Assembly (NCBI GenBank): GCA_900322215.1
Contig: ONYW01000011.1
Coordinates: 1 to 35,368 of the forward strand
Direction of reading: 5' to 3'
DNA: 35,368 nt
Source of the DNA: an uncultured Eubacteriales bacterium
Lineage (GTDB): Bacteria; Bacillota; Clostridia; Christensenellales; CAG-917
Below, piece after piece: positions 16,217 to 34,966 of the stretch. Within the stretch, counting starts at the first letter, position 1; each line of letters begins with the position of its first letter. The translations under genes and the position numbers were made by a program. Under the pieces are notes generated by a model. It was not told the origin of the DNA. It worked only from the letters and a program-made list of their open reading frames with translations, and searched no databases.

Positions 16217-16337
16217 GGCAACTCAATTTGGATGAGATGCAAGAAAGGGTGCTTTGGGCGAAAGCCAAGTGTACTTGGCGTACACGGTGCTTGAGAACAA
16301 AGCACGCTGACGACGCAGGTCGCCAAATTGTGTTGCC
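16217..16337. repeat. Long hairpin element LHE-A
   Basis: Outer arms GGCAACTCAATTTGG (16217-16231) and CCAAATTGTGTTGCC (16323-16337) pair over 15 bases with one mismatch. Inside are GTGCTTT/AAAGCAC (16249-16255 with 16299-16305) and an apical GTGTAC-ttggc-GTACAC (16269-16285). It shares GGATGAGATGC and GGTCGCC segments with LHE-D. Its orientation is opposite to the other copies relative to the upstream gene, and its right end lies 8 bases before the next ATG. Confidence 0.85.
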
Positions 16338-16345
16338 GTAAAGAT

Positions 16346-17182
16346 ATGTATAGAATTGCAAGAGTTGGCCTACATCATTTTGAAGAACCGTGCCTTTCAG
16401 GGAATAATGGAAGTGGCACGATTTTCTTTTCCGGCTGTAATCTAAGGTGTTTGTTTTGTCAAAACTACGAGATTTCTCACGAGGGGAAAGGGCTTGAAGT
16501 GAGCGAGGAAGAACTCGTCTCTTGCATGCGCTATCTTGAAGATTCGGGCGCGCACAATATAAATCTCGTCACCCCGTCAAACTATACAAATTTGCTCGTA
16601 TCGACGCTTAAAAAGGCAAAACAAACGGTTAAACTGCCGATTGTGTGGAATAGTAGCGGGTATGAGACGGTTGCAAATCTCAAAAAGTTGGAGGGACTCG
16701 TCGACGTTTATTTGCCCGATTTCAAGTATAGCGACGACGCGCTTGCCTGGGAGTATTCGCACGCAAAAGGCTATTTTGACGTCGCAAGAGAGGCGATAGC
16801 CGAGATGCGGAGACAACAGCCGCATGACGTCTTTGACAAGGCGGGTATTATGCAAAAGGGCGTGATCGTCCGTCACCTCGTTTTGCCTGCCGCTCTCGAA
16901 AATACGAGAGGAGTGTTGAGTGCCATTGCAAGGATAGACAAAGATATGTTCGTCAGCCTTATGGGGCAGTATTTCCCGACGCCTGCCGTGCAGGGCCATA
17001 GCGTGCTTTCCCGCAGGCTTACGGAGGAGGAGTACGATGCGGCGACGGAAATGTTTTTTGACGCAGGACTCAAAAACGGCTTCTCGCAAGACCTCGATTC
17101 CGCAACCGAGGAGTACGTCCCGAATTTCGACCTCGATGTGCTGAAAAAGATAATCAAAGATAATATGCAATTTGTATTGTAA
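16346..17182 (+). CDS. PflX-like radical SAM protein (pyruvate-formate-lyase-activase-related)
   Basis: A 278-residue radical SAM enzyme of the PflX/COG1313 group. FFSGCNLRCLFCQN holds the CX3CX2C cluster ligands C31, C35 and C38, which would bind a 4Fe-4S cluster and S-adenosylmethionine. The segment LHHFEEPCLSGNNGSGT is typical of the group. Relatives usually begin with a further ~25-residue cysteine-rich stretch (CxxCPRxC), which is absent. Upstream in frame lies only the arm of the long hairpin element 16217-16337, so the 5' end may have been replaced by it. I prefer ATG 16346 over TTG 16328, which sits in the hairpin arm; neither has a strong ribosome binding site. The protein it activates or modifies is unknown. 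Confidence 0.8.
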   Translation: MYRIARVGLHHFEEPCLSGNNGSGTIFFSGCNLRCLFCQNYEISHEGKGLEVSEEELVSCMRYLEDSGAHNINLVTPSNYTNLLVSTLKKAKQTVKLPIVWNSSGYETVANLKKLEGLVDVYLPDFKYSDDALAWEYSHAKGYFDVAREAIAEMRRQQPHDVFDKAGIMQKGVIVRHLVLPAALENTRGVLSAIARIDKDMFVSLMGQYFPTPAVQGHSVLSRRLTEEEYDAATEMFFDAGLKNGFSQDLDSATEEYVPNFDLDVLKKIIKDNMQFVL

Positions 17183-17205
17183 TTCGCATATGTATCTGCT
17201 ATAAT
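17177..17205 (+). promoter_or_regulatory. Promoter of the acyltransferase gene
   Basis: TTGTAA (17177-17182, overlapping the stop of the radical SAM gene), 17 bases, TATAAT (17200-17205). Confidence 0.72.
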
Positions 17206-17228
17206 CCCATTGACGGCAGAGGCGCTAT

Positions 17229-18269
17229 ATGACGTTCGTCTGTCAGTGTGATATGGGAAGAGAGAGAAAATCAAATTTTGAGCTATTGAGAATTATCTCC
17301 ATGCTTATGATTGTCATGCATCACCTTGCAGTACACGGCGGAGCCGTAGTCACGGACGCTTCTCCGGCATTCAGTGTGGCAGTCTTGCACTTTTTTGACC
17401 TTGGCGGAAAACTTGCCGTCAATGCATTTGTGCTTATTAGCGGGTATTTTCTTGTTAAGTCAAAATTTAAGCCTGAAAAGTTGTTCGCACTTATTGTTGA
17501 AATATTTATCTACTCAACAACCATCTATTTTATATTTGTATCACTTGGGAAAGTAAAATTCGAGTGGAAAGCACTAGTGTATTCGTTTTTGCCGCTTAGC
17601 ACAAACGGGTACTGGTTTATGACTTGCTATGTGCTTATGTATCTTGTTTCTCCGCTTGTAAACATAGTGTTAAGGCATTCGACACAGAAGATGCATATAG
17701 CACTCATTCTCATAATGTTTTTTATTTGTTCGATAGTCCCATTGTATTCAGATCATATTCTTTCAGACACGGCTTGGTTTATATTTTTGTATGTAACGGC
17801 GGCATATATCGCACTCTATCCACAAGTATTTGAAAAAAAGTGGGTGTTTGTAGTCGCGTCGACCGCACTGTATCTTGTTATTGTGCTTTTCAAACTATTT
17901 GTACATGTCAGCCTTGATAAAATGGATAATCCGATTTGCTATTTGTGCTCGGTCAGCATGTTTATTATGTTTAAAAACATGAAAATAAAGTTCAACTCAA
18001 TCATAAACTTTGTATCGTCCGCCACGCTTGGAGTATACCTTATTCACGACAACAACTATATCCGTCCGTTCATTTGGCACGATGTGTTCAAAATAGGGGA
18101 GATGTTCAAGTCGAACGACTTTTGGTGGAAGGCGATTTTTGTTGTGATTATCGTGTTTATTGCCGGCGTTGTCATCGACGTATTAAGAAGATTGATTTTG
18201 AAGTTTTTTGACCTGTTTGTCGACTACAATATACTCTCGAAAAAACAGGGGAATTTCTTGCATCTATAA
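17229..18269 (+). CDS. Acyltransferase-3 family membrane protein
   Basis: A 346-residue integral membrane protein with about ten transmembrane helices. The N-terminal SNFELLRIISMLMIVMHH carries the catalytic-type histidine region of the acyltransferase-3 family (OafA/WecH-like), which O-acetylates or otherwise acylates surface sugars, peptidoglycan or teichoic acids. ATG 17229 has AGAGG six bases upstream; ATG 17253 (MGRERKSNF) is a possible alternative closer to the usual family start. The gene is visibly more AT-rich, with more ATA, TTT and GTA codons than its neighbours, consistent with horizontal transfer. The substrate is unknown. No terminator is obvious directly after it. Confidence 0.82.
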   Translation: MTFVCQCDMGRERKSNFELLRIISMLMIVMHHLAVHGGAVVTDASPAFSVAVLHFFDLGGKLAVNAFVLISGYFLVKSKFKPEKLFALIVEIFIYSTTIYFIFVSLGKVKFEWKALVYSFLPLSTNGYWFMTCYVLMYLVSPLVNIVLRHSTQKMHIALILIMFFICSIVPLYSDHILSDTAWFIFLYVTAAYIALYPQVFEKKWVFVVASTALYLVIVLFKLFVHVSLDKMDNPICYLCSVSMFIMFKNMKIKFNSIINFVSSATLGVYLIHDNNYIRPFIWHDVFKIGEMFKSNDFWWKAIFVVIIVFIAGVVIDVLRRLILKFFDLFVDYNILSKKQGNFLHL

Positions 18270-18321
18270 TACTGTATATTATATGTTATAGTTTTAATGA
18301 ATACAGCATTTTGTTGCGCTC

Positions 18322-18340
18322 AGAATACTTATTGTATTCT
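18322..18340. repeat. Short perfect inverted repeat upstream of the uracil operon leader
   Basis: AGAATAC-ttatt-GTATTCT forms a 7-bp stem with no following T-run. Its place about 25 bases before a candidate -35 box makes it a possible operator. Confidence 0.4.
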
Positions 18341-18364
18341 ACGGAAGAAAATTGTCGAAAACTA

Positions 18365-18393
18365 TTGCTAATTTTCAAATGTTATGGTAGTAT
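18365..18393 (+). promoter_or_regulatory. Candidate promoter of the uracil permease leader
   Basis: TTGCTA (18365-18370), 17 bases, TAGTAT (18388-18393); TATAAA at 18391 is an overlapping alternative. A hairpin TGTGAG/CTCACA (18405-18422) follows in the leader. The boxes are only partial matches. Confidence 0.4.
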
Positions 18394-18437
18394 AAATCGA
18401 AAATTGTGAGCAAAAGTCTCACAGGCAGGACAAAAAT

Positions 18438-18554
18438 ATGAAGAATGCTGTTTCTGTAAAGTTTGAAAATCACGCAATAATCGCACAGTACGGTGCGAGC
18501 GAGATTTTGTTCTCCATTTCTTGCCAACTTTCAGCATCTAACTTTCTCAATTGA
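18438..18554 (+). CDS. Possible 38-aa leader ORF before the uracil permease
   Basis: ATG 18438 is preceded by GCAGGAC and opens a 38-codon frame (starting MKNAVSVKFENHAIIAQYGA) that stops at TGA 18552-18554, exactly where the terminator stem begins. Inside it TCGCAC/GTGCGA (about 18481-18498) forms a hairpin. This geometry is what a translation-coupled attenuator would show, but the peptide has no run of a regulatory amino acid. It may be a chance ORF or the remnant of a gene. Confidence 0.35.
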   Translation: MKNAVSVKFENHAIIAQYGASEILFSISCQLSASNFLN

Positions 18555-18582
18555 AGAAGTCCCTCTTTGGACTTCTTTTTTT
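18554..18582 (+). terminator. Terminator in the leader of the uracil permease gene (candidate attenuator)
   Basis: Stem AAGAAGTCC (18554-18562), loop CTCTTT and partner GGACTTCTT (18569-18577) followed by a T-run. It lies about 65 bases upstream of the permease start, and no good promoter is visible between. Expression of the permease therefore probably requires readthrough of this hairpin. No PyrR-binding consensus or purine riboswitch core was recognised. Confidence 0.8.
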
Positions 18583-18645
18583 GAGCAAAAAATGCCACAA
18601 AAGTCAACAAACAAATTTAAATATATTACATAGGAGTGAAATCGT

Positions 18646-20184
18646 ATGAACAATCAACTTATCTACAACGTTGAAGACAGACCGAAGTTCTCAAAACTCT
18701 TGGTCTTCGCGATTCAACAAGTTCTCGCTGTTATGGCGGCAACAATCGCAGTTCCTACAATCATCGGCTTGCCAACGCAAATCCCTGCGGCAATTCTCGG
18801 CGCCGGCGTCGGAACGATCGTGTATTTGCTTTTTACAAAATTCAAGAGCCCGGTCATTATTTCGAGTTCGTTTGCATTCCTTGACGCATTGTTTGTCGCG
18901 GTCGCGTTCGGATATCTCGGAATCATCGTCGGTGCGATTTTTGCAGGTCTTGTGTATGTTGTCATCGCACTCATCATTCACTTTGCAGGCACGAAATGGG
19001 TTTCAAAACTCATGCCTCCCGTCATCATCGGACCGACCGTCGCACTCATCGGTTTGAGCCTTGCGGGTGCTGCAATGGGCGACATCACAACGGCAACGGG
19101 TTCCGTGCTCAACCATAGCTACAACTTGGTCGCACTCCTTTGCGGTCTCGTCACGTTCATCACGGTTGTCATCTGCTCTTGCCAAAAGAGATTCAAGAGC
19201 ATGAAACTCATTCCGTTCATCATCGGTATCGGTGCAGGTTACCTCTGCGCATCTATCTTCTCGGCGTTCGGTTATGGTCTTGACGTTGACTACCTCAAGA
19301 TAATCAACTGGCAACCGCTCGTTTCCAACTTTGTTGACGCAAACGGCAACTTCACAGGCATCACGGCATTCCTTGACTATCCGCGTTTCGCACTCGTTGA
19401 AGGCATCAGAGAAATCGCGGACGGCAGAGTTCTTCTCACGGGCGCAGGCGTCGGTGAAATCGCACTCGCATTCATTCCGATCGCACTCGTCGTCTTTGCG
19501 GAGCATATCGCAGACCACAAGAACCTCGGTTCTATCATCAACCGTGACCTCGTCGAAGGCGAGCCCGGTCTTGAAAGAACGCTCCTTGGTGACGGCGTCG
19601 GCTCTATCGCAGGTACAGTCTTCGGTATCTGCCCGAACACAACTTACGGCGAGTCCGTCGGTTGCGTCGCTATCACAAAGAACGCGTCTGTCTCCACGAT
19701 CTTCACGGCGGCTATCATGTGCATCGTGCTCAGCTTCATAAGCCCGATCATGAGACTCCTTCAAACGATTCCGAACTGCGTTATGGGCGGCGTTTGCTTG
19801 ACGCTCTACGGCTTCATCGCAGTCAGCGGTCTCAAGATGTTCAAAGAAGTTGACCTCAACGAAAACAAGAACCTCTTCACGGTCTCCGCAATCCTCATCG
19901 CAGGTATCGGCGGTCTCGCTATCAGAATCCCGTATCACGCGACGGAAGGCGTCGTTGACAAAGTCATCACGATCACATCAATCGCAACCGCACTTGTCCT
20001 CGGCATCTGCACATACGCAATCATCAACGCACTCGAAAAGAGAGAAGGCAAAGACGAAGAAGGCGAACCGGAAAGCCTCGTCGTCGGCGCAGTCGCTCCG
20101 GACGCAACTTATGAAGTCGGCAAATCCGTCGTCAAAGATGACGCACAAGAAGAGCCTGCGGAAGAAGCTCCGGTCGAAGAATAA
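18646..20184 (+). CDS. uraA: Uracil/xanthine permease (NCS2 family)
   Basis: A 512-residue inner membrane transporter with about 14 hydrophobic segments, of the nucleobase:cation symporter-2 family. Diagnostic stretches are the FAEHIADHKNLGSI segment and GLERTLLGDGVGS followed by PNTTYGES, which carry the substrate-binding glutamates of the UraA/UapA fold. Uracil is the most likely substrate because upp follows 67 bases downstream; xanthine cannot be excluded. The last ~45 residues form an acidic hydrophilic tail (ending EEPAEEAPVEE), which the family normally lacks. TAGGAG (18631-18636) precedes ATG 18646. Transcription probably passes a terminator in the leader. Confidence 0.9.
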   Translation: MNNQLIYNVEDRPKFSKLLVFAIQQVLAVMAATIAVPTIIGLPTQIPAAILGAGVGTIVYLLFTKFKSPVIISSSFAFLDALFVAVAFGYLGIIVGAIFAGLVYVVIALIIHFAGTKWVSKLMPPVIIGPTVALIGLSLAGAAMGDITTATGSVLNHSYNLVALLCGLVTFITVVICSCQKRFKSMKLIPFIIGIGAGYLCASIFSAFGYGLDVDYLKIINWQPLVSNFVDANGNFTGITAFLDYPRFALVEGIREIADGRVLLTGAGVGEIALAFIPIALVVFAEHIADHKNLGSIINRDLVEGEPGLERTLLGDGVGSIAGTVFGICPNTTYGESVGCVAITKNASVSTIFTAAIMCIVLSFISPIMRLLQTIPNCVMGGVCLTLYGFIAVSGLKMFKEVDLNENKNLFTVSAILIAGIGGLAIRIPYHATEGVVDKVITITSIATALVLGICTYAIINALEKREGKDEEGEPESLVVGAVAPDATYEVGKSVVKDDAQEEPAEEAPVEE

Positions 20185-20206
20185 CAAACAAAAACAAAGC
20201 AAAACG

Positions 20207-20233
20207 GCAAGGGCAGTCTTTGACTGCTCTTGC
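20207..20233 (+). promoter_or_regulatory. Intercistronic hairpin between uracil permease and upp
   Basis: A 12-bp stem (GCAAGGGCAGTC, 20207-20218; partner 20222-20233, one G:T pair) with a three-base loop and no T-run. It is more likely an RNA processing or stability element than a terminator, lying just before the upp ribosome binding site AGAGG (20242-20246). Confidence 0.6.
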
Positions 20234-20251
20234 AATGTATAAGAGGTAATT

Positions 20252-20890
20252 ATGAAAAGCTATCCAAACGTAACAATATTTGATCATCCGCTCATCAGAC
20301 ACAAAGTCGCTATCCTTCGCGACAAGAACACGGGTATGAAAGAGTTTAGAGAACTCGTTGAAGAAATCACAACTCTCATGGTGTACGAAGCGTTTAAGGA
20401 CGTTCCGACCAAGAAAGTTATGGTGGAAACTCCGCTCGAAACTTGCGAACAAACGATGGTTGCAGACGGCGTTGTTACAATCGTTCCCGTCCTCCGCGCA
20501 GGTCTCGGTATGGTGAACGGCGTTCACAATCTTTTCCCAACGGCAAGAGTCGGTCATATCGGTATGTACAGAGACGAAGAAACTTGCGAACCACACGAGT
20601 ATTACTGCAAGCTTCCAAACAGAACGGATGATACAGTCGCAATCGTCCTCGACCCAATGCTCGCAACAGGCGGCAGCGCAGTCGCGGCGATCGATCTTTT
20701 GAAGCAAAAGGGATACACAAATATCCGCCTTATGAACATCATTGCGGCACCAAAGGGCGTAGAAGTCGTGACAAAGGCTCACCCGGACGTCAAGATCTAC
20801 ATCTCCACGCTCGATAGAGAACTCAATGAGCATAGCTACATTTTGCCGGGGCTGGGCGATGCCGGCGACCGCCTCTTCGGCACCAAATAA
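20252..20890 (+). CDS. upp: Uracil phosphoribosyltransferase
   Basis: A 212-residue cytosolic enzyme converting uracil and PRPP to UMP and pyrophosphate, the pyrimidine salvage step. Length and sequence match the family throughout. The PRPP-binding loop is IVLDPMLATGGSA (about residues 130-142), the VLRAGLGMVNG segment is the second substrate contact, and the C-terminal GLGDAGDRLFGTK forms the uracil-binding end. It shares a transcript with the permease upstream, coupling uptake to trapping as UMP. AGAGG precedes ATG 20252. The TAA is directly adjoined, and partly overlapped, by the arm of the long hairpin element 20889-21007. Confidence 0.97.
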   Translation: MKSYPNVTIFDHPLIRHKVAILRDKNTGMKEFRELVEEITTLMVYEAFKDVPTKKVMVETPLETCEQTMVADGVVTIVPVLRAGLGMVNGVHNLFPTARVGHIGMYRDEETCEPHEYYCKLPNRTDDTVAIVLDPMLATGGSAVAAIDLLKQKGYTNIRLMNIIAAPKGVEVVTKAHPDVKIYISTLDRELNEHSYILPGLGDAGDRLFGTK

Positions 20891-21007
20891 TCGGCGCTAT
20901 TTAGCGAATAACTTTGTCAAACCCCTCTTGCGATGCGGTTATGTACGTCAGTACACGCCCTTTCGCAAGAGGGGTTTTCCTTGTTCTTCATCTAAATATC
21001 GCCGATT
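20889..21007. repeat. Long hairpin element LHE-B
   Basis: Outer arms AATCGGCGCTATTTAG (20889-20904) and CTAAATATCGCCGATT (20992-21007) pair over 16 bases with a single C/A mismatch. An inner 15-bp perfect stem joins 20919-20933 to 20963-20977, and the tip is TGTAC-gtca-GTACA (20942-20955). The left arm starts inside the TAA of upp. It may act as the terminator of the uracil operon, since the inner stem is followed by TTTTCC. Confidence 0.9.
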
Positions 21008-21409
21008 CTTTGGCGCCGAAGTACCCAAACTCTAGTTCGAAGATTGAATTGGAGTCGCAGTGGCGACGACCGCGTGAGTGTGCCCCGACTGATATGCAGT
21101 ACGCCTCGACGGCGAGGCTCCGTTCTTTTTCGCCCAAAGAGGCGTGGCATAATGAGAGCACGATACTTTTGAGGGCACCGACGGGTCTTCCCGGAGCGGG
21201 TATAAAGTCTTGCAGAGAATAGCAAGGTCAAAATGCGACAATATTGTTTTTCATAAACTAAGCATTTTGACTTGTGTTCGGCTATTGCGCGGTGGGAAGA
21301 ACCATACGAAGGAGATGGGAAAACTTTATTTAAGGTTAAACAACAGAACTAAATGTAATAGCGAATAAAAAACACAACCAACAAGCGAGTTGGCGAGAAA
21401 ACTGAGTTA
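21008..21409. other. Non-coding stretch
   Basis: No gene is supported; the short frames here have no ribosome binding site. One inverted repeat stands out: GTCAAAATGC (21227-21236) with GCATTTTGAC (21262-21271), 10 bp and a 25-base loop. The rest looks like decayed intergenic repeat sequence. Confidence 0.5.
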
Positions 21410-21438
21410 TTGCTTTATTTCGCAGGGTTGTGTACAAT
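21410..21438 (+). promoter_or_regulatory. Promoter of the XRE/TPR regulator
   Basis: TTGCTT (21410-21415), 17 bases, TACAAT (21433-21438). CGGAGGA precedes ATG 21476. Confidence 0.65.
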
Positions 21439-21475
21439 ATAGGCAGAAACAAAGGGTACCCGTTCGGAGGACATT

Positions 21476-22522
21476 ATGGAAATAGGAAACAAAATAAAAC
21501 AATTGAGACTCAAAGTCAGTCTCACACAAGAGCAACTTGCGGACAGACTTGGCATAAGCCCGCAGTCTGTTTCTAAGTGGGAGAACTCGGTGTCTATGCC
21601 CGACATTACGCTGCTCCCCGAGATAGCGGAGATCTTTGGCGTAACGATAGACGAACTCTTTGACCTGACTGTCGAGCAAAAATTCAGCCGAATAGAGAAT
21701 CGCATGGACATCGAAGAAAGCCTCTCGTCCGACGTATTTTGGGAATACGAGGAGTTTTTGAAAGCGCAACTCAAAGTGGAGAAGTACAAGCTGCAGGCGA
21801 CGTCGCTCCTTGCAAACCTGTATCATCACCGTATGACGTCGGACGCAAAAGAGGTGAGCAAGTACGCAAGAGAGTCAATTCGTCTTGCGCCTGACGTCAA
21901 GGACTGTCAGTGGCTTCTTAATATGGCAGAAGGGCAGACCTGCTGGGATTGGAACATCTCAAACCACGCAAAACTCATAGAGTTTTATAAGGAGATTATC
22001 GCAAACGACAAAAAGGAGCCAAAAACTCCTATGCCATACTACGATCTCATCGACAACCTGCTTGCGGACAACCGTGTGGACGAAGCGGAAAAGTATGTGG
22101 GCGAAGTTGCAAAACTCCCTGCAACAAAACCTGTGCTTGTTGAGGTCTACAAGGCATATATCGCTCTCGGCAGACACGACGTCAAAACAGCCGACGCGAT
22201 TATGGAAAAGCTCGTGAGCGACAATCCGACCAACTGCGACGCGCTCTTTGAAACGGCACAATACTACGCCAGACAGTGCAAATACGAAAAGGCAATCGAG
22301 TTTTACAATCGCTCATTCGAGAGCGAACCAAAGAAACCGAGATTTATCGACGCACCGCAGGCGATCTCCATAATATACGAGATTATGGGCGACTATGAAA
22401 ACGCCGCCAAGGCAAACGAACGCGTGATACGGTGCTTAAAGGAAGAGTGGGGCATGACAGAGGAAGTGGAACTTAGAGATGCCGAAAATGAGCTTGACCG
22501 ATTGAAAAACCGCGCTATTTAG
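21476..22522 (+). CDS. XRE-family transcriptional regulator with TPR-like C-terminus
   Basis: A 348-residue protein. Residues about 5-62 are a Cro/C1-type helix-turn-helix (LTQEQLADRLGISPQSVSKW is the recognition unit). From about residue 85 to the end there are repeated helical pairs of TPR type, for example ALFETAQYYARQCKYEKAIE. This layout is common in Firmicutes regulators that sense peptides or partner proteins through the TPR part; the ligand is unknown. The stop codon and the last codons (KNRAI) are supplied by the left arm of long hairpin element LHE-C, so the present C-terminus may have been created by its insertion. CGGAGGA precedes ATG 21476. Monocistronic. Confidence 0.85.
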   Translation: MEIGNKIKQLRLKVSLTQEQLADRLGISPQSVSKWENSVSMPDITLLPEIAEIFGVTIDELFDLTVEQKFSRIENRMDIEESLSSDVFWEYEEFLKAQLKVEKYKLQATSLLANLYHHRMTSDAKEVSKYARESIRLAPDVKDCQWLLNMAEGQTCWDWNISNHAKLIEFYKEIIANDKKEPKTPMPYYDLIDNLLADNRVDEAEKYVGEVAKLPATKPVLVEVYKAYIALGRHDVKTADAIMEKLVSDNPTNCDALFETAQYYARQCKYEKAIEFYNRSFESEPKKPRFIDAPQAISIIYEIMGDYENAAKANERVIRCLKEEWGMTEEVELRDAENELDRLKNRAI

Positions 22523-22629
22523 CGCCTAACTTTGTCAAACCCCATCTTCCCGACCTCATGTACGTCGTGTACATTAGGGCTCGTGAAGATGGGGTTTTCC
22601 TTGTTATGCATCTAAATATCGCGGTTTTT
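22505..22629. repeat. Long hairpin element LHE-C
   Basis: Outer arms AAAAACCGCGCTATTTAG (22505-22522) and CTAAATATCGCGGTTTTT (22612-22629) pair over 18 bases with one C/A mismatch. The inner stem is AAACCCCATCTTC (22537-22549) with 22585-22597, and the tip ATGTAC-gtcgt-GTACAT (22558-22574). The left arm encodes the last five amino acids and the TAG of the regulator upstream. Confidence 0.92.
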
Positions 22630-22771
22630 ATGAAGCAACAAAATAATGAAGACACGAAGTGTCCGCGCCTTCCTGACAAAGGGGATTTTCCTTGTTATGC
22701 ATCTAAATATCGCGGTTTTTATGTAGCAACAAAATAATGAAGACACGAAGTGTCCGCGCCGTCGTGACAAA
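22591..22771. repeat. Tandem duplication of the LHE-C right arm
   Basis: Two direct copies, period about 90-91 bases: 22591-22680 and 22681-22771. They differ at only a few positions and by one inserted A. Each carries the right arm of the element (GCATCTAAATATCGCGG) and a GACACGAAGTGTC palindrome. Confidence 0.88.
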
Positions 22772-22795
22772 GAAATAACAAAGACACGAAGTGTC
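22651..22795. repeat. Three copies of the palindrome GACACGAAGTGTC
   Basis: Exact copies at 22651-22663, 22742-22754 and 22783-22795; a fourth lies at 32483-32495. Each forms a GACAC-gaa-GTGTC hairpin. Confidence 0.8.
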
Positions 22796-22797
22796 AA

Positions 22798-22834
22798 AAT
22801 AAAACGCTACGAGAGACGTAGCGTTTTATTTTGT
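22798..22834. terminator. Strong intrinsic terminator
   Basis: A 13-bp perfect stem (AATAAAACGCTAC, 22798-22810; partner 22818-22830) with loop GAGAGAC and a T-rich flank. It is placed to end transcription from both the XRE gene and the minus-strand ORFs. Confidence 0.88.
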
Positions 22835-22845
22835 TTTGTTTGCGG

Positions 22846-23022
22846 TCAGTTCAAGGCGTCGTCGTCAAGCGTTTCAAAAAACTTCTCGACGTCGGAAAAC
22901 CACTCGAACGTACGCCTCTCTCCGTTCACCTCAATGGTGACGGGGTAGTGACAAAAAGCAAGCTCCAAAAGGGCTTGCTTTTTATTTTCAAATTGCTTTG
23001 CTGAATCTACAATAACTATCAT
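22846..23022 (-). CDS. Possible 58-aa ORF coupled to the upstream membrane-protein gene
   Basis: The minus-strand ATG at 23022 shares its A with the TAA of the preceding gene (TAATG), the usual sign of translational coupling. The frame runs 58 codons to TGA 22846-22848. The second half (starting CHYPVTIEVNGERRTFEWF) looks protein-like and uses the GC-rich third positions typical of this genome. The first half is AT-rich and contains a perfect 11-bp terminator-type hairpin (22953-22983). Either this is a real small protein made by readthrough, or a gene fragment lying beyond the terminator of the membrane-protein gene. No family recognised. Confidence 0.4.
   Translation of the reverse strand: MIVIVDSAKQFENKKQALLELAFCHYPVTIEVNGERRTFEWFSDVEKFFETLDDDALN
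22953..22985. terminator. Terminator-type hairpin within the small minus-strand ORF
   Basis: An 11-bp perfect stem (AAAAAGCAAGC, 22953-22963; partner 22973-22983), loop TCCAAAAGG, with T-rich ends on both strands. On the minus strand it would end the transcript of the small membrane-protein gene. Confidence 0.75.
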
Positions 23023-23243
23023 TAGATGTTAAGGAGACGGCAGATCTTGTGTTGTGTGACCATGAAGATGATGTCAAGAATCCAGATGATGTTCCAACCA
23101 AAGATGAGTCTGATGATACCTGCAACGATTTTGCCCTCAGAGAAACGTGTGAGCCAACCAAGAACCCAAGATGTAACAGGGATGATTGCAAGAATCAAAC
23201 TGACGATCCAGCTAAGTCCAAAGTAATCACTTTTGTTTGCCAT
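23022..23243 (-). CDS. Small two-helix membrane protein (73 aa)
   Basis: A 73-residue hydrophobic protein with two predicted transmembrane helices (about residues 9-30 and 42-62) joined by the loop RFSEGK. The pattern WIVSLILAIIPVTSWVLG then GWNIIWILDIIFM resembles small TM2-like hypothetical proteins of Clostridia; no function is known to me. I start at ATG 23243 because GGAGG precedes it at the right distance; the in-frame ATG at 23258 overlaps that site. Own promoter. Its stop overlaps a second small ORF. Confidence 0.72.
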   Translation of the reverse strand: MANKSDYFGLSWIVSLILAIIPVTSWVLGWLTRFSEGKIVAGIIRLIFGWNIIWILDIIFMVTQHKICRLLNI

Positions 23244-23283
23244 AGTTATATCCTCCATAAATTTTGGCTATTACCTTTTCTTT

Positions 23284-23312
23284 ATTATAATACGTATTGT
23301 ATAAAATTGCAA
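23284..23312 (-). promoter_or_regulatory. Promoter of the small membrane-protein gene
   Basis: Minus strand TTGCAA (23307-23312), 17 bases, TATAAT (23284-23289). Confidence 0.78.
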
Positions 23313-28388: not shown

Positions 28389-28402
28389 ACCCCGTTTACA
28401 CA

Positions 28403-28437
28403 ACAAAAAAAGCACTCAAACGAGTGCTTTTTTGTTG
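28403..28437. terminator. Bidirectional intrinsic terminator
   Basis: A stem of about 15 bp (ending AAAAGCACTC, 28409-28418; partner from GAGTGC at 28423) with loop AAAC and T-runs on both strands, between the convergent GPH transporter and P-type ATPase genes. Confidence 0.92.
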
Positions 28438-28454
28438 CCAAAATTGTTTGGAAA

Positions 28455-31067
28455 TTATTGTTTTGTCGAATCATTTGCTTCCACAGTGCTATCCGTTTCG
28501 GCTTGCGTTTGAGGCGTTTCACCCGCTTGCGTAGGGGAGGCAAGCGCAACAACGTCTTTGCCGACTGGTTGCAACACTTTGAATTTGCGGAGGATCTTCA
28601 CCATAACGCTCTCTTCCTTCTTGTTGACGTTTCTTGTCAAGAAGACGGTGATGATAAACACGATGAGCACGATATAGCAAATGCCCGCGATCGTTTTGAG
28701 GGAGTCGGTCGAAAAGTCGTTTGTAAGTCCGAAGAAGTCCTGCAAACTGAATATACCGATACCGACTTTTGAGAGGTCGGCGAAGTAGCAGGCGAGGAAG
28801 AGACCTATCATTATGACAAAGTTAAGCGCGTGAATGATAGTGAGCGGCAGGGAAACTTTGAGCAAATAGATGAGTCCGACAAACGTCGTCACGATGAGGC
28901 AGGCGTTTTGGAACTGCGGATCCGTAAGATCCTTCATGATCCACGTCTTTGTGATGATGACGGCGACTACGCCGATAAGCACGGTAATAGCGCCCGACAG
29001 AGCGGAGGATAGAACCTTTGGCAGGAAGTGCCCCGTGACTCTTTCCTTGTTCGGCTCGAGAGCGAGGACTACGGACGGAATGCCGATCGTCACCATACCG
29101 ATTATCGTGAGATGTCTCGGCTCGAACGGGTATGCCGTCGGAATGCAAAGGAAGAGAATGGCAAGCAAAATGCTATACATCGTCTTCATAAGGTAGAGAG
29201 ATGCGCTTCGCTCCAAGTTGTTAATCGACCTTCTGCCCTCGGCGACGACCTTTGGCATAGACGCGAAGTTGCTGTCGAGAAGGACGAGAGAACTTACGTT
29301 CTTTGCCGCGTCCGAGCCCGACGCCATAGCAATAGAGCAGTCCGCCTCTTTGAGGGCAAGAACGTCGTTGACGCCGTCGCCCGTCATGGCAACCGTATGT
29401 CCCTTTGCTTTGAGCGCTTTGACAAGCGCGAGTTTTTGGTCGGGGAGCACGCGTCCGAAAATCGTATATTTTTCCGCCGCGTCGTACACTTCTTGCTCGG
29501 TGGAGAGTGTGGACATATCGATTATGTTGTCGCAGTTTTCAAGTCCCGCGCGGAGCGCGACTGCACGCACGGTCTCGGGGTTGTCGCCCGAAATAATCTT
29601 GACGTCCACGCCTTGCTCTTTGAAAAATTTGAGCGTGTCCGGCGCTTCGGCTCTTATCTTGTCCGTGATATAGACGTATGCTTGCGCTTTGAGTCCTTGC
29701 GGAAGGCTGTTGTCTCCGAATTTCTTGCTTGATACGGCAAGCACCATGACGCGGTAGCCCTGTTTCGCCATTTCGGCAACCTTGGCTTGCATCTCCGCAG
29801 TTTGTTTTTTGAAAACAAATTCAGGCGCGCCGATGACAAACGATTTGCCGTCCACTCTCACACCGCTCCACTTTCTTGCGGAGGAGAACGGAACTTTTTC
29901 TTCCACCTTGCCGTTTGCGGAAAGGTCCGCGACGTATGCGCGGAGCGCGTTTGCCGTGGCGTTGTCGTCTTCGAGTGCGGTGAAGACGTTTTTGAGGTTT
30001 TGTTTGATTTCGTCAAGCGTGTAGTCGGCTGTCGGCTCTATGCCGTTGACTTCCATCGTGCCTTCCGTGATAGTGCCCGTCTTGTCAAGGCAAAGCACGT
30101 CCACGCGTGCGAGAGTCTCGACACAGTAGAGGTCCTGCGCGACCGTCTTGTTCTTTGAAAGGCGAATGACGCTCACGCAAAATACGGTCGTTGCAAGCGC
30201 GACGAGTCCGTTCGGTATCATACTGATGACGGAGGCTATCGTGGACACTACCGTCGAGTTGAGGTCGTTGCCTTGCCCCAGCCACTTTGTGAGAAGGAGC
30301 GCAACGCCGAGAGGGACGATGATGATAGACATCACCTTGACGACGAACATGAGCGAACGCCAAATCTCCGACGTCGGCTTTTTGACGTACTTAGCACCCG
30401 AGGATATCTTCATGACAAAGTTGTCCTGTCCGATATGCTCGACCTGGCATTTTGCCTTGCCGGACACGACGAAGGAGCCCGAAAGCACCTTGTCGCCCGC
30501 GGTCTTTTGAATGGCGTCCGACTCGCCCGTTATGAGGCTTTCGTTGACCTCGATAGAACCGTCGACGATGACGCCGTCCGCGCAAATTTGTTTGCCTGCG
30601 GAGAGCACCGTGATTTCGTCGATAACGATTTGTTCAAGCGGGATTTCAACCTCTTCGCCGTCTCTTATGACGATCGCTTTCGGCGCGGAGAGAAGGGCGA
30701 GTTTGTCCATAATGCGCTTTGAACGAAGCCCCTGAAAGACGCCTGCCGCCGTGTTGAATATGATGAGTATCAAAAAACCGAAGTTTCCGATTTTTGGATT
30801 GAAAAACGCAAGAATAATTGCAAACGCGACAAAAATAAAGTTGAAAAAGGTGAAGATGTTCTCGCGCAAAATCTGCCACACGGATTTTGTGCGTATTGTC
30901 TGTTCTCCGTTGACTTTGCCCGCGGCGACGCGCTCTTGAACTTGTGAGGCGGTAAGACCTGTCGCGGGGTCGGTAATCTGCGCAGGAGTCTCGGACGTCG
31001 CTGGTTCAAGCAAAACTTCAGAGGGTTCCAACGCTTGTGCTTCTTTTTTGGTTTTCTTTTTCAACAT
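28455..31067 (-). CDS. Cation-transporting P-type ATPase (CtpE/Exp7-like)
   Basis: An 870-residue P-type ATPase. The actuator loop is ITGES (TGES 180-183), the phosphorylation site CLDKTGT with D328, and the hinge TGDGVND (562-568). Transmembrane helix 4 carries IPNGL (284-288) in place of the PEGL of Ca-ATPases and lacks the CPC of heavy-metal pumps, as in the CtpE/Exp7 branch, for which a role in Ca2+ uptake has been described. About ten transmembrane helices. The first ~30 residues and last ~35 residues are hydrophilic extensions. AAAGGC precedes ATG 31067. The ion carried is an inference from the branch. Confidence 0.88.
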   Translation of the reverse strand: MLKKKTKKEAQALEPSEVLLEPATSETPAQITDPATGLTASQVQERVAAGKVNGEQTIRTKSVWQILRENIFTFFNFIFVAFAIILAFFNPKIGNFGFLILIIFNTAAGVFQGLRSKRIMDKLALLSAPKAIVIRDGEEVEIPLEQIVIDEITVLSAGKQICADGVIVDGSIEVNESLITGESDAIQKTAGDKVLSGSFVVSGKAKCQVEHIGQDNFVMKISSGAKYVKKPTSEIWRSLMFVVKVMSIIIVPLGVALLLTKWLGQGNDLNSTVVSTIASVISMIPNGLVALATTVFCVSVIRLSKNKTVAQDLYCVETLARVDVLCLDKTGTITEGTMEVNGIEPTADYTLDEIKQNLKNVFTALEDDNATANALRAYVADLSANGKVEEKVPFSSARKWSGVRVDGKSFVIGAPEFVFKKQTAEMQAKVAEMAKQGYRVMVLAVSSKKFGDNSLPQGLKAQAYVYITDKIRAEAPDTLKFFKEQGVDVKIISGDNPETVRAVALRAGLENCDNIIDMSTLSTEQEVYDAAEKYTIFGRVLPDQKLALVKALKAKGHTVAMTGDGVNDVLALKEADCSIAMASGSDAAKNVSSLVLLDSNFASMPKVVAEGRRSINNLERSASLYLMKTMYSILLAILFLCIPTAYPFEPRHLTIIGMVTIGIPSVVLALEPNKERVTGHFLPKVLSSALSGAITVLIGVVAVIITKTWIMKDLTDPQFQNACLIVTTFVGLIYLLKVSLPLTIIHALNFVIMIGLFLACYFADLSKVGIGIFSLQDFFGLTNDFSTDSLKTIAGICYIVLIVFIITVFLTRNVNKKEESVMVKILRKFKVLQPVGKDVVALASPTQAGETPQTQAETDSTVEANDSTKQ

Positions 31068-31099
31068 TGTATTTGCCTTTCTAAAAATAAATATATTTT

Positions 31100-31128
31100 A
31101 GTATAACATATAATGAACAAAATTCAAA
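31100..31128 (-). promoter_or_regulatory. Weak promoter candidate of the P-type ATPase gene
   Basis: Minus strand TTTGAA (31123-31128), 17 bases, TATACT (31100-31105). The -35 match is poor. Confidence 0.35.
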
Positions 31129-31202
31129 CGTTTGTTTTTATTTGGCGAAAAAAATATTTAAAAACGCGCATAAACGGGGTGAAATCCACGTATATTTTGC
31201 GT

Positions 31203-31865
31203 ATGAAAAGAAAAATTTTGCTTGCAATACTTGCAGTTGTTATCATCGTTGCATCACTCTCCGCGCTCGTCGCCTGCAACAAAAAGGGCGAAGAAAAGCC
31301 TGCGGAGCCTATATCTCGCATAACGCGGGAGTATTATGCCGGGGAGAGCGATCTCTTTGCCGTAGTCGTCGAAAAAGGGGAGAGAGAAAAGAATTTCATC
31401 GCGGACGGCAAGGCGACGGACGTTTGCGCGTTTGCGACGGTGTCCGTCACTCCGCTCAAAACCAACGACTATGAAGAACTCGCCTATGAACTGAAAGGCG
31501 AAACAAGCACTCTAACGGGTTCGATAGCGCGCGACGAGTACGGCGAATACAAGACGGACGTCACGCTTGACTTTGTTCCCAAACAGGCGATAATCACAGT
31601 CGGCGAAACGAAAAGCGAGATAGACCTCGTCTCCGTCCTCGAGGGTGCACTCTCCGTCGGCGATATAATAAACATCGCAAAAGCGGAGTTCAAAGATACG
31701 CTTGACAAGGAGGCTGAACTCGGCAAAGAGCGAGAAATCTACCTCAAAGTCATCACCGGCGACAGAGAAAACTATTTCTATTACGTCTCCTTCATCGGCG
31801 ACGGCGTGGACTACCTCGCGGTGCTAATAGAACCGAAGACAGGAAAGATAGTCAGTAAAAAATGA
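31203..31865 (+). CDS. Small lipoprotein of unknown function (220 aa)
   Basis: MKRKILLAILAVVIIVASL then the lipobox LVAC (C25) marks a type II signal peptide, so the mature protein is tethered to the outer face of the membrane. The remaining ~195 residues are charged and predicted mostly beta; I recognise no domain. The end (LIEPKTGKIVSKK) resembles the close of PepSY-like domains, but the match is too slight to call. ATG 31203 starts exactly at the signal peptide; no good ribosome binding site is seen, and GTG 31179 in frame is a weaker alternative. Divergent from the P-type ATPase, with a terminator overlapping its stop. Confidence 0.72.
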   Translation: MKRKILLAILAVVIIVASLSALVACNKKGEEKPAEPISRITREYYAGESDLFAVVVEKGEREKNFIADGKATDVCAFATVSVTPLKTNDYEELAYELKGETSTLTGSIARDEYGEYKTDVTLDFVPKQAIITVGETKSEIDLVSVLEGALSVGDIINIAKAEFKDTLDKEAELGKEREIYLKVITGDRENYFYYVSFIGDGVDYLAVLIEPKTGKIVSKK

Positions 31866-31884
31866 GCCGAGGGGCTCATTTTTT
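31861..31884 (+). terminator. Intrinsic terminator of the small lipoprotein gene
   Basis: AATGAGCC (31861-31868), loop GAGG, GGCTCATT (31873-31880) and a T-run; the stop codon lies inside the stem. Confidence 0.9.
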
Positions 31885-31930
31885 GTGATGTGTTTCGCTT
31901 CGCTCAACATGATGTAAATTTCGTAAAATC

Positions 31931-32406
31931 GAGCAACCACACACTTGTGTGGTTGTTATTTTTTGTAGTATTGCCGTCACTTCGAGCGTAAGTCGAGAAA
32001 GTCCGACTTCGGTGTTGCCAAGGGCATCCACCTTGTTCGCTTGGGCTACGGACAATTCACCGGATTGTCCGCTTAACGCGTCGCGCCCCTAAGTAGAGAC
32101 GTGTGGTTGCTCTAACTTGCTATCGTCGTTCAACCCTAAATGCAATACCCCTTCCTGCTCCGCCAGTTTTCCCCACCGCGGAACTTACCGAACACAAGTT
32201 GCTCACTTTTAAGGAATAAACAAAACTGTCGTTCGCAACGTTGCTATTCCCTACAAAAGCGAGTGCTCGCTCCGGGGACACCAAGTCGGCGCTCTAAAAT
32301 CCGGTTTCCTCTATTCTTTGCCACTTCGCCTTTGGGACGCTCCGCAACAAAATGTCCCAAAGTCTCGTACTGAGTGCAGACCGAGGCACTCCGGGGACTC
32401 CACTTT
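31931..32406. repeat. Large structured repeat F, copy 1 (with inserted module M)
   Basis: No gene is supported. It opens with hairpin CAACCACAC/GTGTGGTTG (31934-31942 with 31947-31955) followed by a T-run, then TTCGAGCGTAAGTCGAGAAA, module M (about 32001-32092), GTGTGGTTGCTC (32101-32112) and some 290 bases that match 35073-35368 at high identity. Internal hairpins include TTTGGGAC/GTCCCAAA (32331-32338 with 32354-32361) and GAGTGC/GCACTC (about 32371-32390). Conservation without an ORF suggests a mobile or structured RNA element. Confidence 0.88.
32001..32092 (+). repeat. Repeat module M inserted in repeat F copy 1
   Basis: Present here but absent from repeat F copy 2, where GTCGAGAAATCCC runs straight on to TGTAGAGACA. 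Most of it recurs inverted at 10241-10327. It contains the palindrome GGACAATtCACCGgATTGTCC. Confidence 0.8.
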
Positions 32407-32420
32407 GCGGAGTCGGTTCC

Positions 32421-32570
32421 GTCTTCGAAAGAGTGAGTCGGTTCACCTGCTACGCTTTGAATAGGCTGACGTGAATAACAGAGACACGAAGTGTCCGTCT
32501 TCGAAAGAGAGAGTTGAGACTCCGGCGCGTCTTCGAAAGAGTAAGTCGGAACTCCCGCGCGTCTTCGAAC
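32421..32570. repeat. Degenerate repeats with GTCTTCGAA core
   Basis: GTCTTCGAAAGAG occurs at 32421, 32497 and 32529, with GTCTTCGAAC at 32561. The last three are exactly 32 bases apart, and the intervening bases are partly conserved (AGTCGG, CTCCGGCGC-like). A GACACGAAGTGTC palindrome lies between the first two. Confidence 0.75.
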
Positions 32571-32581
32571 AGGCAAGCATC

Positions 32582-32708
32582 AAAAACCGCGATATTTGGA
32601 TGAGATGCGCGAAAGGGCGCCTTCTTTTGTGATGGAGCGTACATTGACGTACGTGACTGAACAAAAAAGGCGACCTGACAAAGCAGGTCGCCAAATAGCG
32701 CGGTTTTT
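32582..32708. repeat. Long hairpin element LHE-D
   Basis: Outer arms AAAAACCGCGATATTTGG (32582-32599) and CCAAATAGCGCGGTTTTT (32691-32708) pair over 18 bases with one mismatch at the same position as in LHE-B and LHE-C. The tip carries CGTACATTGACGTACG-type pairing near 32638-32653. The right arm ends one base from the stop codon of the HU gene on the minus strand, so it may end that transcript. Confidence 0.9.
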
Positions 32709-32709
32709 A

Positions 32710-32982
32710 TTAGTTGAAAAGGTCTTTGAACCCCTTACCAAACTTGCAGACAGGTGCTTTGGACGCTGCGATTGTGATAGGTTGCTTTGTGACAGGGTTG
32801 AAGCCTTGACGTGCCGGTTTCTCTTTGAGTTCGAAGGACGCGAAGTTTGCGATTGCAACTTTGTCGCCTGCTTTGAGAGATTCTGCGATAACTTCAACAA
32901 GTGCGTCTACAGCAGCCGTAGCGTCTTTTTGGGAGAGTTCTGCTTTTTGTGCAACGAGTTTAATAAGTTCAGTTTTGTTCAT
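32710..32982 (-). CDS. hup: HU-family DNA-binding protein
   Basis: A 90-residue nucleoid protein, the standard HU length. The N-terminal MNKTELIKLVAQKAELSQKD and the body helix match the family; the DNA-binding arm is present as PARQGFNPVTKQPITIAASK, with the proline of the arm tip retained but the usual GRNPxTG changed to GFNPVTK. The C-terminal FGKGFKDLFN replaces the usual FKPGK-ALKD-N end. It bends and compacts DNA as a dimer. AGGAGG precedes ATG 32982. Monocistronic with a near-perfect promoter; its 3' end runs into LHE-D. Confidence 0.95.
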   Translation of the reverse strand: MNKTELIKLVAQKAELSQKDATAAVDALVEVIAESLKAGDKVAIANFASFELKEKPARQGFNPVTKQPITIAASKAPVCKFGKGFKDLFN

Positions 32983-33009
32983 AATTAGCCTCCTAAGGAT
33001 AGTGAATAA

Positions 33010-33038
33010 ATTATAGCCAATTTTGTGGTTTTATGCAA
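33010..33038 (-). promoter_or_regulatory. Promoter of the HU gene
   Basis: Minus strand TTGCAT (33033-33038), 17 bases, TATAAT (33010-33015). Confidence 0.8.
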
Positions 33039-33052
33039 TACCTTTTGCAAAA

Positions 33053-33078
33053 AAACCACTAAATAGTGTGGTTTTTGC
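33053..33078. repeat. Hairpin between the divergent HU and aminotransferase genes
   Basis: AAAAACCAC and GTGTGGTTTTT pair around TAAATA with a bulge, giving T-runs on both strands. It resembles a collapsed version of the outer arms of the long hairpin elements, but homology is unproven. The remaining bases to 33220 hold no gene. Confidence 0.5.
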
Positions 33079-33220
33079 AAGATAATGATACAAGTGTAGC
33101 CAAAAATCCGCTTTGTTCCGCCCGCCGCGTTGGAGATATCGGACAATTGACAAAAAACGGAATTTGTTTATTTACTCCAAAATTTGCCGATTTGTACTGT
33201 TATCGCAAGAAGTATGGGTA

Positions 33221-33249
33221 TTTACAACCAAAAGCGAGAGGTTTATAAT
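33221..33249 (+). promoter_or_regulatory. Promoter of the class III aminotransferase gene
   Basis: TTTACA (33221-33226), 17 bases, TATAAT (33244-33249). AAGGAGGG then precedes ATG 33289. Confidence 0.82.
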
Positions 33250-33288
33250 AATGTCATAAAATAATAACTTGCCTATAAGGAGGGAATT

Positions 33289-34926
33289 ATGGCAAACGGT
33301 TATGGCATTTCAAGTTGGCAAGACGCCGCGGAGATCAATAGAGAACTGAAGGCTCTCACGGACAAACCTATCTATTGCGTGTCTGAGGACGCGCTCAAAG
33401 ACATTCTCAATCACTTTGAAACGAAGTGCGCAAAATCCAAGGAAATCACAACGGAAGCAAAGAAGTATATTCCGGGCGGTGTTCAACACAACCTCGCATT
33501 CAACTATCCTTTCCCGATGTGCATGGAAAAGGCGGAGGGCGCATACCTCTACGATAGAGACGGCAACCAGTATATCGACTTCCTTCAAGCGGGCGGTCCG
33601 ACAATTCTCGGCTCCAACTTCCCTGCGGTGAAAGAAAAGGTGTTTGAACTCCTCAACACCTGCGGTCCTGTCACGGGACTCTTCCACGAAGGCGAACTCC
33701 TTCTTGCAAAGAAGATCAACGAACTTATGCCAAACTGCGAAATGTTCCGTATGCTCGGCTCGGGCACAGAGTCCGTCATGGCGGCCATTCGTGTCGCGCG
33801 TTGCGCCACAAAGAAAAAACGCGTCATCAAAGTCGGCGGTGCCTACCACGGCTGGTCGGATCAAATGGTCTACGGTTTGAAGATACCGGGCTCTCGTCAG
33901 TTCCTCGAATCTCACGGTATTCCGGGATCTTACAACAAGACGGACGAAGTCAGACCGAACGACCTCAAGATGCTCGAAAAGATGCTCAAAAAGAACACCC
34001 TTCGCGGCGGCACTGCGGCAGTCATCGTAGAGCCTGTCGGTCCTGAATCCGGCACGCGTCCGATCGACCTCGATTACAACCTCAAAGCGCGTATCCTCGC
34101 AAAGAAATACGGCGCACTCTTCATCTTCGACGAAGTCGTCACGGGATTCCGCGTCGGCATCCACGGTGCAGCGGGCTACTTCTTCAAAGAGAACTACGGC
34201 TATGACTACAACAACGACATCGCTCTCGTCGACGGCAAACAATGGATAATAGAGGACAAAAAACTCGAAAACGGCAAGGTTGTCAAGTTCAAACGCCCTG
34301 CAACAAACAGAGATATGTATCCTGATCTCACGGTCTTCGGCAAGATCGTCGCAGGCGGTTATCCGTCCGCAGGCGGCGTCGGCGGCAAGAGAGAATACGT
34401 CAGCCTCATGGCGGCAGGCCTTGCAGGTATGGGCAAAAAGGCATACGTCGGCGGCACGCTCGCGGCAAACCCGCTTTCCTCTTATGCAGGCTATCTTGCA
34501 ATTTGCGAAATAGAGAAGAACAACGCATGTGAAAAGGCAGGTCACGCAGGCGACCGCTTGGCGGCAGGTCTTAAAGCCCTCGTCAAAAAATACAATCTCC
34601 CGTTCGTCGTCTACAATCAAGGCTCTATCGTCCACCTCGAATGCACGGGCGCAATGAGTTTTGACTTCTCCAATATGAACTTGCTCGGCTCCGTCGTCCC
34701 GATGCTCAAAAAGAAACCTGAAATGCTCCGCAGAAAGGTTGCTATGGAACAAATGGGTGCAGCCTACATGGCAAACGGCATCGTCACTCTCGCGGGTTCT
34801 CGTCTTTACACCTCAATGGCTGACACGGACGAAATCATCGACGAAGCCCTCCGCCGCTTTGAAAACGTCTTCAAGACTGTTGTGGAGTGTACTGACAACT
34901 CCCGCTTCGAGAAAAAACCTCATTAA
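33289..34926 (+). CDS. Class III PLP-dependent aminotransferase (glutamate-1-semialdehyde-aminomutase-like)
   Basis: A 545-residue PLP enzyme. Key parts of the fold are the cofactor phosphate site GSGTES (157-162), AYHGW (185-189), FDEVVTGFR with D281 contacting the pyridine nitrogen, and the Schiff-base lysine K352 in TVFGKIVAGG. Overall similarity is to HemL, but the protein is about 110 residues longer: an extra N-terminal ~55 residues and an insertion at about 297-343 just before the lysine motif. No other heme gene is in the window, so a role as HemL is doubtful; a dedicated transaminase or aminomutase for another substrate is as likely. Excellent promoter and ribosome binding site point to high expression. 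The stop overlaps the arm of a truncated hairpin element. Confidence 0.85.
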   Translation: MANGYGISSWQDAAEINRELKALTDKPIYCVSEDALKDILNHFETKCAKSKEITTEAKKYIPGGVQHNLAFNYPFPMCMEKAEGAYLYDRDGNQYIDFLQAGGPTILGSNFPAVKEKVFELLNTCGPVTGLFHEGELLLAKKINELMPNCEMFRMLGSGTESVMAAIRVARCATKKKRVIKVGGAYHGWSDQMVYGLKIPGSRQFLESHGIPGSYNKTDEVRPNDLKMLEKMLKKNTLRGGTAAVIVEPVGPESGTRPIDLDYNLKARILAKKYGALFIFDEVVTGFRVGIHGAAGYFFKENYGYDYNNDIALVDGKQWIIEDKKLENGKVVKFKRPATNRDMYPDLTVFGKIVAGGYPSAGGVGGKREYVSLMAAGLAGMGKKAYVGGTLAANPLSSYAGYLAICEIEKNNACEKAGHAGDRLAAGLKALVKKYNLPFVVYNQGSIVHLECTGAMSFDFSNMNLLGSVVPMLKKKPEMLRRKVAMEQMGAAYMANGIVTLAGSRLYTSMADTDEIIDEALRRFENVFKTVVECTDNSRFEKKPH

Positions 34927-34966
34927 AAACCGCGTGATTTAGCGAATAGCATTGTCAAAGCCCTTC
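34925..34966. repeat. Truncated long hairpin element LHE-E
   Basis: Only the left arm and its flank are present: AAAAACCGCGTGATTTAG (34925-34942) then GCGAATAGCATTGTCAAAG, matching LHE-B and LHE-C. The copy breaks off at about 34966, next to repeat F copy 2; no right arm is seen. Its first two A bases belong to the TAA of the aminotransferase gene. Confidence 0.82.

Follow-up and report, generated by a model that had tools for sequence, protein, structure and literature searches.

The 35,368-nt contig ONYW01000011.1 of an uncultured Eubacteriales bacterium (Christensenellales, CAG-917; assembly GCA_900322215.1), analysed over its whole length and called the window here, carries at the ends of several genes a non-coding element of approximately 126 bases that folds into one long irregular hairpin. 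The element occurs in the source genome in numbers far above chance, and it is probably a mobile miniature element akin to ERIC (also IRU or RU-1), one that depends on a folded single strand and is tolerated at places where the stop codon is rebuilt. A sequence-only reading of the window had claimed five copies and had named no described family that fits; all five places read as it had stated, while the lack of a fitting family was not borne out, as ERIC matches the element in length, fold topology, folded strand and tip, and covariance models of the two match reciprocally. The high copy number, the strand-specific fold and a pairing that continues past the arms go beyond that reading.

Copy number, spread and fold

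In blastn searches of the whole genome (E ≤ 1), the window copies named C and D below gave 57 and 59 matches, respectively, with fragments and opposite-strand matches counted. A covariance model, R1, was built from 49 aligned copies of the source genome (55 places were taken from loci and 7 incomplete ones left out, which gave 48 complete copies, and window copy A was added). Applied to the 1.59-Mb genome, R1 yielded 143 matches at E ≤ 0.01, of which 138 non-overlapping ones, some of them incomplete, were kept after five matches above E 2.5e-6 had been dropped; only 150 candidates were scored in this search, and the copy count may be a lower bound. The check proposed by the sequence-only reading, a covariance model searched genome-wide and in relatives, disclosed far more than the window copies, and its refuting case that only these copies exist did not materialise.

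Outside the source genome, the element was matched in 18 of 20 genus relatives, in 61 of 200 genomes of the order (the source genome included) and in 15 of a further 397 genomes from the phylum, none of which is labelled as the same class. A pattern scan also gave matches in two metagenome-assembled genomes (MAGs), those of Christensenella sp. UBA1260 and of Clostridia bacterium RGIG7896 (water-buffalo reticulum), names that suggest the gut as the habitat. When one locus each from 11 of the 15 phylum genomes was compared, the modules described below were common to all, and the stems were unrelated. In the source genome (G000, a draft that is 94.3% complete), elements also stand in direct succession and the same orientation as pairs or triplets (C17:36296, C21:148, C25:526, C28:13789, C38:41400, C40:6750 and others), and a variant lengthened to approximately 195 bases by an insert adjacent to the tip is present both there (C26:7341-7536) and in a related species, G002 (C10:11355-11549).

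The fold comprises 126 model positions and 45 pairs. Across the 49 copies, 32 of the 45 pairs had changed on both sides, with 390 cells showing such two-sided changes compared to 119 in shuffles, and 92.1% of the cells were paired, as against 74.6% in shuffles (none of 500 reached the observed value) and at most 42.6% when the partners were slid by 1–3 columns. The earlier suggestion that inner stems which differ and still pair imply selection on structure is supported by this covariation together with the conserved mismatches. Conservation is strongest in irregular modules: a bulged A accompanied by a U.G pair that never varies (GATGA/TCGC), GGAA facing TGAC, and a GTAC tip of 6 bp. In many copies, a G.U pair closes the tip and purine mismatches adjoin it; the stems linking these modules vary freely with pairing kept. 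A subfamily of 6 of the 49 copies has a T.T mismatch, and A- and T-tracts are found at both ends of the element.

The two strands do not fold equally well. The same strand folded better in all 49 copies (mean −59.3 compared to −50.1 kcal/mol) and in 11 of 11 loci from other phylum genomes, and at the usual sites this strand is antisense to the host gene. On it, the conserved mismatches are largely purine-purine, and G.U pairs exceed A.C by 252 to 181 (counted over 177 copies from two genomes after two fixed wobbles had been excluded), for which the p value of 7e-4 is optimistic because the copies are related. The better-folding strand, as RNA or as single-stranded DNA, is taken to be the constrained one. 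A search for a promoter that could serve it, made over the 70 upstream bases flanking 164 copies, gave no column exceeding 0.23 bits.

Likeness to ERIC

The tip of the element is reminiscent of the published ERIC primers. ERIC is 127 bases long, compared to 126 here, and each is one long irregular hairpin; the conventional ERIC strand folded better in eight of eight cases, and it is the same better-folding strand as in the element. Both have a common loop module (2 / G-C / 2x2 ... 3) and a tip of the form GA-GCnTAC..GTAnGT-GA, and the right end of ERIC lies at the stop of an antisense gene in E. coli (ybhI) and Kosakonia, as it does in the element. The stems and ends of the element are, in contrast, unlike those of ERIC.

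The comparison was made with R1 and two further covariance models, R2 from ERICs only and R3 from 30 matches outside the genus, and with ERICs from eight loci; all model E-values are rough, and R1 was run on the ERIC loci with filters off. With R1, ERIC was the top match in all eight ERIC loci (E 1.5e-5 in Pantoea to 1.1 in E. coli). R2 ranked copies B, D and C first in the window (E 4.9e-4, 1.8e-3 and 6.2e-3, respectively), and in 86 other loci of the source genome all 10 of its matches at E ≤ 1 were elements on the correct strand (best 1.6e-7). It further matched 14 of 19 loci of order relatives and 4 of 11 loci from other parts of the phylum at E ≤ 0.008. R3 found ERIC in all eight ERIC loci, on the same strand and at full length (E 2.9e-9 to 0.012), and its best match (3.5e-11) was an unforeseen ERIC between metR and metE in the 50-kb K-12 control stretch (L298:12906-13030), whose 77-base core aligns to the ERIC consensus. 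The outer arms of this K-12 copy are unlike the consensus yet largely paired, an indication that arms may turn over in E. coli too.

Several of the results count against an ERIC-like identity. R2 found only 10 of about 130 copies of the source genome outside the window at E ≤ 1 and was weak in other parts of the phylum, and a non-element hairpin reached 0.02. The K-12 ribosomal-operon terminator, just after the 5S rRNA gene, outscored six of the eight ERICs with R1 (19.7 bits) and two of the eight with R3 (20.9 bits, E 0.0093). Without structure, an nhmmer profile of ERIC run on the window and on 40 loci of the source genome, 20 of G002 and 20 of an order relative, G028, reached 0.13 at best (on an element), and the element's own profile reached 0.26 at best on the eight ERIC loci, not on an ERIC. 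Moreover, one E. coli site is counted twice among these eight loci (L265 and L278), and the members of R3 were recruited with R1. Among the six distinct ERIC loci, the stop lies at the right end in two, near the left end in two and at neither in two, a placement far less strict than that of the element. The terminator control indicates that a strong hairpin as such can gain part of the score, though not nearly as much as the best ERICs reach, and setting it beside all ERIC scores lowered our confidence slightly.

These results also bear on the alternative that the likeness reflects convergence of two long-hairpin families without common descent. The lack of a significant sequence-only match, the complete difference of the stems and the strong score of an unrelated terminator are what such convergence would produce, and re-reading the terminator control raised its odds slightly. 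Convergence is nonetheless unlikely, since the matches are reciprocal, strand-specific and full-length, the loop module and tip are alike, and with R3 the ERICs of K-12, Pantoea and Citrobacter (3.5e-11 to 6.7e-9) stand far above the terminator. As judged from the models, the element is best called ERIC-like and not ERIC proper, because the terminator scores above the weaker ERICs, no sequence-only match is significant and the distal end, where ERICs carry TA as at their other end, along with a TA target duplication, showed no TA excess. The hosts differ as well: ERIC is described from Enterobacteriaceae and Vibrionaceae (PMC10969869), whereas the element is hosted by Clostridia MAGs and by genomes of the order and phylum.

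Placement at stop codons

The position of the element was tabulated for 129 of the 138 sites in the source genome and for 47 of 81 in G002, with genes called by our own codon-usage script, the starts of which are rough. In the source genome, the right end of the element faced the stop of an antisense gene at 114 of the 129 sites, within 25 bases at 96 of them and most often at −3 to −1; a start codon was found there at 13 sites (within 25 bases at 7) and no gene at 2. The left end showed no such relation to genes at these 129 sites. G002 gave a similar picture (a facing stop at 43 of 47 sites, within 25 bases at 40), as did the best-scoring loci of genus relatives, where the stop lay at −6 to +2 in 12 of 13 (8 of 13 beyond the genus), and the other phylum genomes, where 8 of 11 loci lay at 0 to −6 from the stop of an antisense open reading frame (ORF) of 173–499 codons. 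The placement at stop codons in one orientation, for which the sequence-only reading had asked for a table of distances, is thus upheld.

The stop was TAA at 98 of 106 modal sites of the two genomes, compared to 232 of 417 genes without the element, and in 27 further cases it lay inside an element arm; the A-run hence supplies or overlaps the stop. At seven sites of the source genome (e.g. C44:34604-34730), the right end lies 6–20 bases 5' of a start codon, where the better-folding strand would form part of a 5' leader. A contig-wise strand bias was considered as a replication signal and rejected, as it follows gene orientation in stretches of G002.

The copies in the window, with the limits of the complete ones taken from R1, follow this pattern with one exception. 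The four complete ones are listed as inverted repeats and are hairpins of 123–127 bases. Copy B (20887–21009, better-folding strand minus, R1 E 3.5e-24) overlaps the TAA of a uracil phosphoribosyltransferase gene (20252–20890, plus strand, Pfam E 2.2e-78), and its arms extend into the coding end of that gene. Copy C (22505–22629, minus, E 3.5e-26) holds in its outer arm the TAG stop (22520–22522) of an HTH/TPR gene (21476–22522), and copy D (32582–32708, plus, E 1.4e-27) lies 1 base from the TAA of an HU-type gene on the minus strand (32710–32982). Fragment E (34925–34966, minus), the gene-side 42 bases of a copy, stands at the TAA of an aminotransferase gene (33289–34926) and fell below R1 reporting at E 1e-6. 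The exception is copy A (16214–16340, plus, E 6.7e-19), which is reversed compared to the usual orientation, its left end being 9 bases 3' of the stop of gene 14828–16204 by the model limits. The C/A mismatch that had been pointed out in B, C and D, with the C-bearing arm towards the upstream gene, is real; copy A departs in both respects and carries T/T instead.

A sixth place (22682–22720, minus) holds the distal 39 bases of an element, 97% identical to copy C, and adjoins a repeated flank. A second dispersed repeat of approximately 310 bases lies at 21036–21345; it is 90–94% identical to at least 13 other places in the genome, and 7 of the 13 listed places, as well as the window copy, stand 19–259 bases off the distal side of a hairpin element. 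Several elements are followed at their distal end by a short repeat, GTTCGAAGACGCGCGGGAGTTCCGACT or variants of it (window 32480–32570). Searched against the 4227 Rfam families at gathering scores, the window gave only a Gut-1 RNA (9941–10011, minus strand, barely above the gathering score with 51.7 compared to 50 bits) and a tRNA (10438–10510), both away from the elements; positions 16000–23000 gave no match at E 1.

At sites of the usual kind, the sense transcript would end in a long hairpin with a T-tract, and this could act on termination or mRNA stability; such a role is possible. For ERIC, orientation is described as mattering, and ERICs at 3' ends as acting on mRNA through an RNase E site (PMC2229807, PMC10969869). 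In our data, terminator-like hairpins followed the element in 62 of 102 cases, compared to 150 of 216 genes without it (p 0.13), with a detector that also fires on 106 of 318 shuffles. A role as sole terminator is not supported, as terminator-like hairpins still follow in these cases, and insertion into the loop of an existing terminator was rejected, as the element-free orthologues inspected have their terminator further downstream and its arms are unrelated.

Inheritance, movement and the putative enzyme

The element is both inherited and spread. Among 86 reciprocal best gene pairs of the source genome and G002 (strict position), it stands at the same stop in 24, in the source genome only in 18, in G002 only in 3 and in neither in 41. 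The pairs at shared sites are more alike than shuffled partners in all four regions computed (the tip excluded, and one region being part of another), for instance 0.682 compared to 0.598 in the outer and 0.458 compared to 0.379 in the inner region, and in several of them the inner stem is wholly different. In 13 orthologous pairs, 82 two-sided and 20 one-sided changes kept a pair, compared to 72 that lost or gained one. Copy B and its host gene formed the basis of a comparison by eye of the uracil phosphoribosyltransferase stop in 18 genomes, 7 of which have the element there (one cut by a contig end). Three of these 7 have a distal arm that repeats, in inverted form, the gene end of the species concerned; it tracks synonymous differences and keeps one shared mismatch. 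Spread is seen in 26 pairs of dispersed copies of the source genome with an identity of 90% or above. Where inspected (12 pairs), identity ends at the gene-side A-run, and the distal flank is common to some; motifs of the GTTCGAAGACGCGCGGGAGTTCCGACT type are also found distal of near-identical copies at different genes. The "MITE-like" label of the sequence-only reading therefore fits, as the unit is non-coding, sharply bounded and dispersed, with near-identical copies at unrelated genes. Among 123 copies of the source genome, a T precedes the A-run in 62 of the 82 runs found on the gene side, and on the distal side T, C and G were counted 43, 39 and 8 times, respectively, out of 90. For the target duplications that had been suggested as a check, the distal end of these 123 copies showed no TA excess.

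In 11 of 127 copies of the source genome (approximately 1 expected) and in 2 of 44 in G002, pairing continued past the arms to an extent above the 99% permutation level, and in several copies it reaches the coding end of the host gene. Such inverted copies of host-gene ends, like the distal arm that follows synonymous differences among three species, could arise if the arms were kept alike by template switching at hairpins and not by selection on the fold. Correction of the arms in this way should erase the conserved mismatches, yet these persist, and at the uracil phosphoribosyltransferase stop three species have one and the same mismatch; we regard this explanation as improbable.

A weightier alternative is that the element is a domesticated bidirectional terminator or 3'-end stabiliser, the copies of which are kept by selection on the transcript and have little present mobility. 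The A- and T-tracts at both ends, the place at stop codons, the likeness of the 24 orthologous-site pairs, the mirrored gene ends in three species and the excess of pair-keeping changes all agree with it. Against it stand the better-folding strand, usually antisense and with an upstream flank lacking a conserved promoter, the terminator-like hairpins that remain downstream, the near-identical copies at unrelated genes and the 2 of 20 genus relatives without a match, and on balance we consider it rather doubtful.

Known mobilising systems were compared as well. RAYT is a Y1 protein, and IS630, to which RUP is tied, carries DDE_3. The Y1 transposase family (PF01797) had no match in the draft source genome or in the copy-rich genomes G001–G003, G006 and G008; it was matched in 8 of 41 genomes, including the copy-free G020. 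The reverse-transcriptase (RVT_1) and DDE_3 families likewise had no match in the draft source genome, and on the lack of a match there REP/RAYT, reverse-transcriptase and DDE_3 mobilisers were ruled out; the proposal of a RAYT/REP-type repeat thereby lost its support. Integron attC sites have an invariant AAC/GTT core in their outer arms, and attC cassettes resemble the element in the logic of a folded single strand, the use of the antisense strand and the position at stop codons. In the 49 copies, no invariant pair was found in outer-arm columns 3–18, hence no fixed AAC/GTT core, and the copies occur singly or in short tandems at housekeeping genes (HU, uracil phosphoribosyltransferase). REPs are described as 20–40 bases long with GTAG/CGTC tags (PMC3733652); both they and the element are folded palindromes in extragenic DNA, the element being far longer. 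A REP/RAYT-type or attC-type system is accordingly a very remote prospect. RUP, Correia/NEMIS and YPAL/RU-2, described as non-coding intergenic hairpin repeats of approximately 100–200 bases (PMC2229807), were likened to the element by description and are alike in these respects.

An ERIC-like mobile element thus remains the favoured explanation. The element and ERIC would descend from a common ancestor and move by way of a folded single strand that is mostly antisense to the host gene and that a putative enzyme acting in trans would recognise. Insertion at stops may be tolerated because TAA is re-formed by the terminal A-run, or else because translation ends at an in-frame stop carried by the arm. 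To the reservations about the ERIC models must be added that the searches for Y1, RVT_1 and DDE_3 yielded no mobilising enzyme in the source genome, that the distal end has no TA excess, that the element is common to 24 of the 45 element-bearing orthologous pairs, more than fast hopping would leave, and that in G028 none of 20 loci has a long antisense ORF ending at −6 to +2. Many of the G028 hairpins (loci L232–L257) lie within longer repeated sequence with similar flanks.

The element is of a known kind, the bacterial miniature repeat, and what sets it apart is its kinship, its density and its placement. No title among the literature matches listed names ERIC-like elements in Clostridia or Firmicutes, which is no proof of their absence from print. 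ERICs underlie a common typing method, and De Gregorio in 2005 reportedly found that in Yersinia they favour one orientation beside stop codons. A review and a paper of 2007 describe the movement of such repeats as not worked out (PMC2229807, PMC2759123). With the same fold in Clostridia and other phylum genomes, where it is denser and tied to stops, two questions become testable: what enzyme is responsible for the movement of ERICs, and what accounts for their position at gene ends in a single orientation. We tentatively raise the further possibility, one we hold with less than even confidence, that ERIC is a branch of an ancient class that crosses phyla, spread as a folded single strand by a putative enzyme whose insertions are aimed at stop codons. 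If this were true, the small, copy-rich genomes of the order would allow the enzyme to be found by gene presence and absence.

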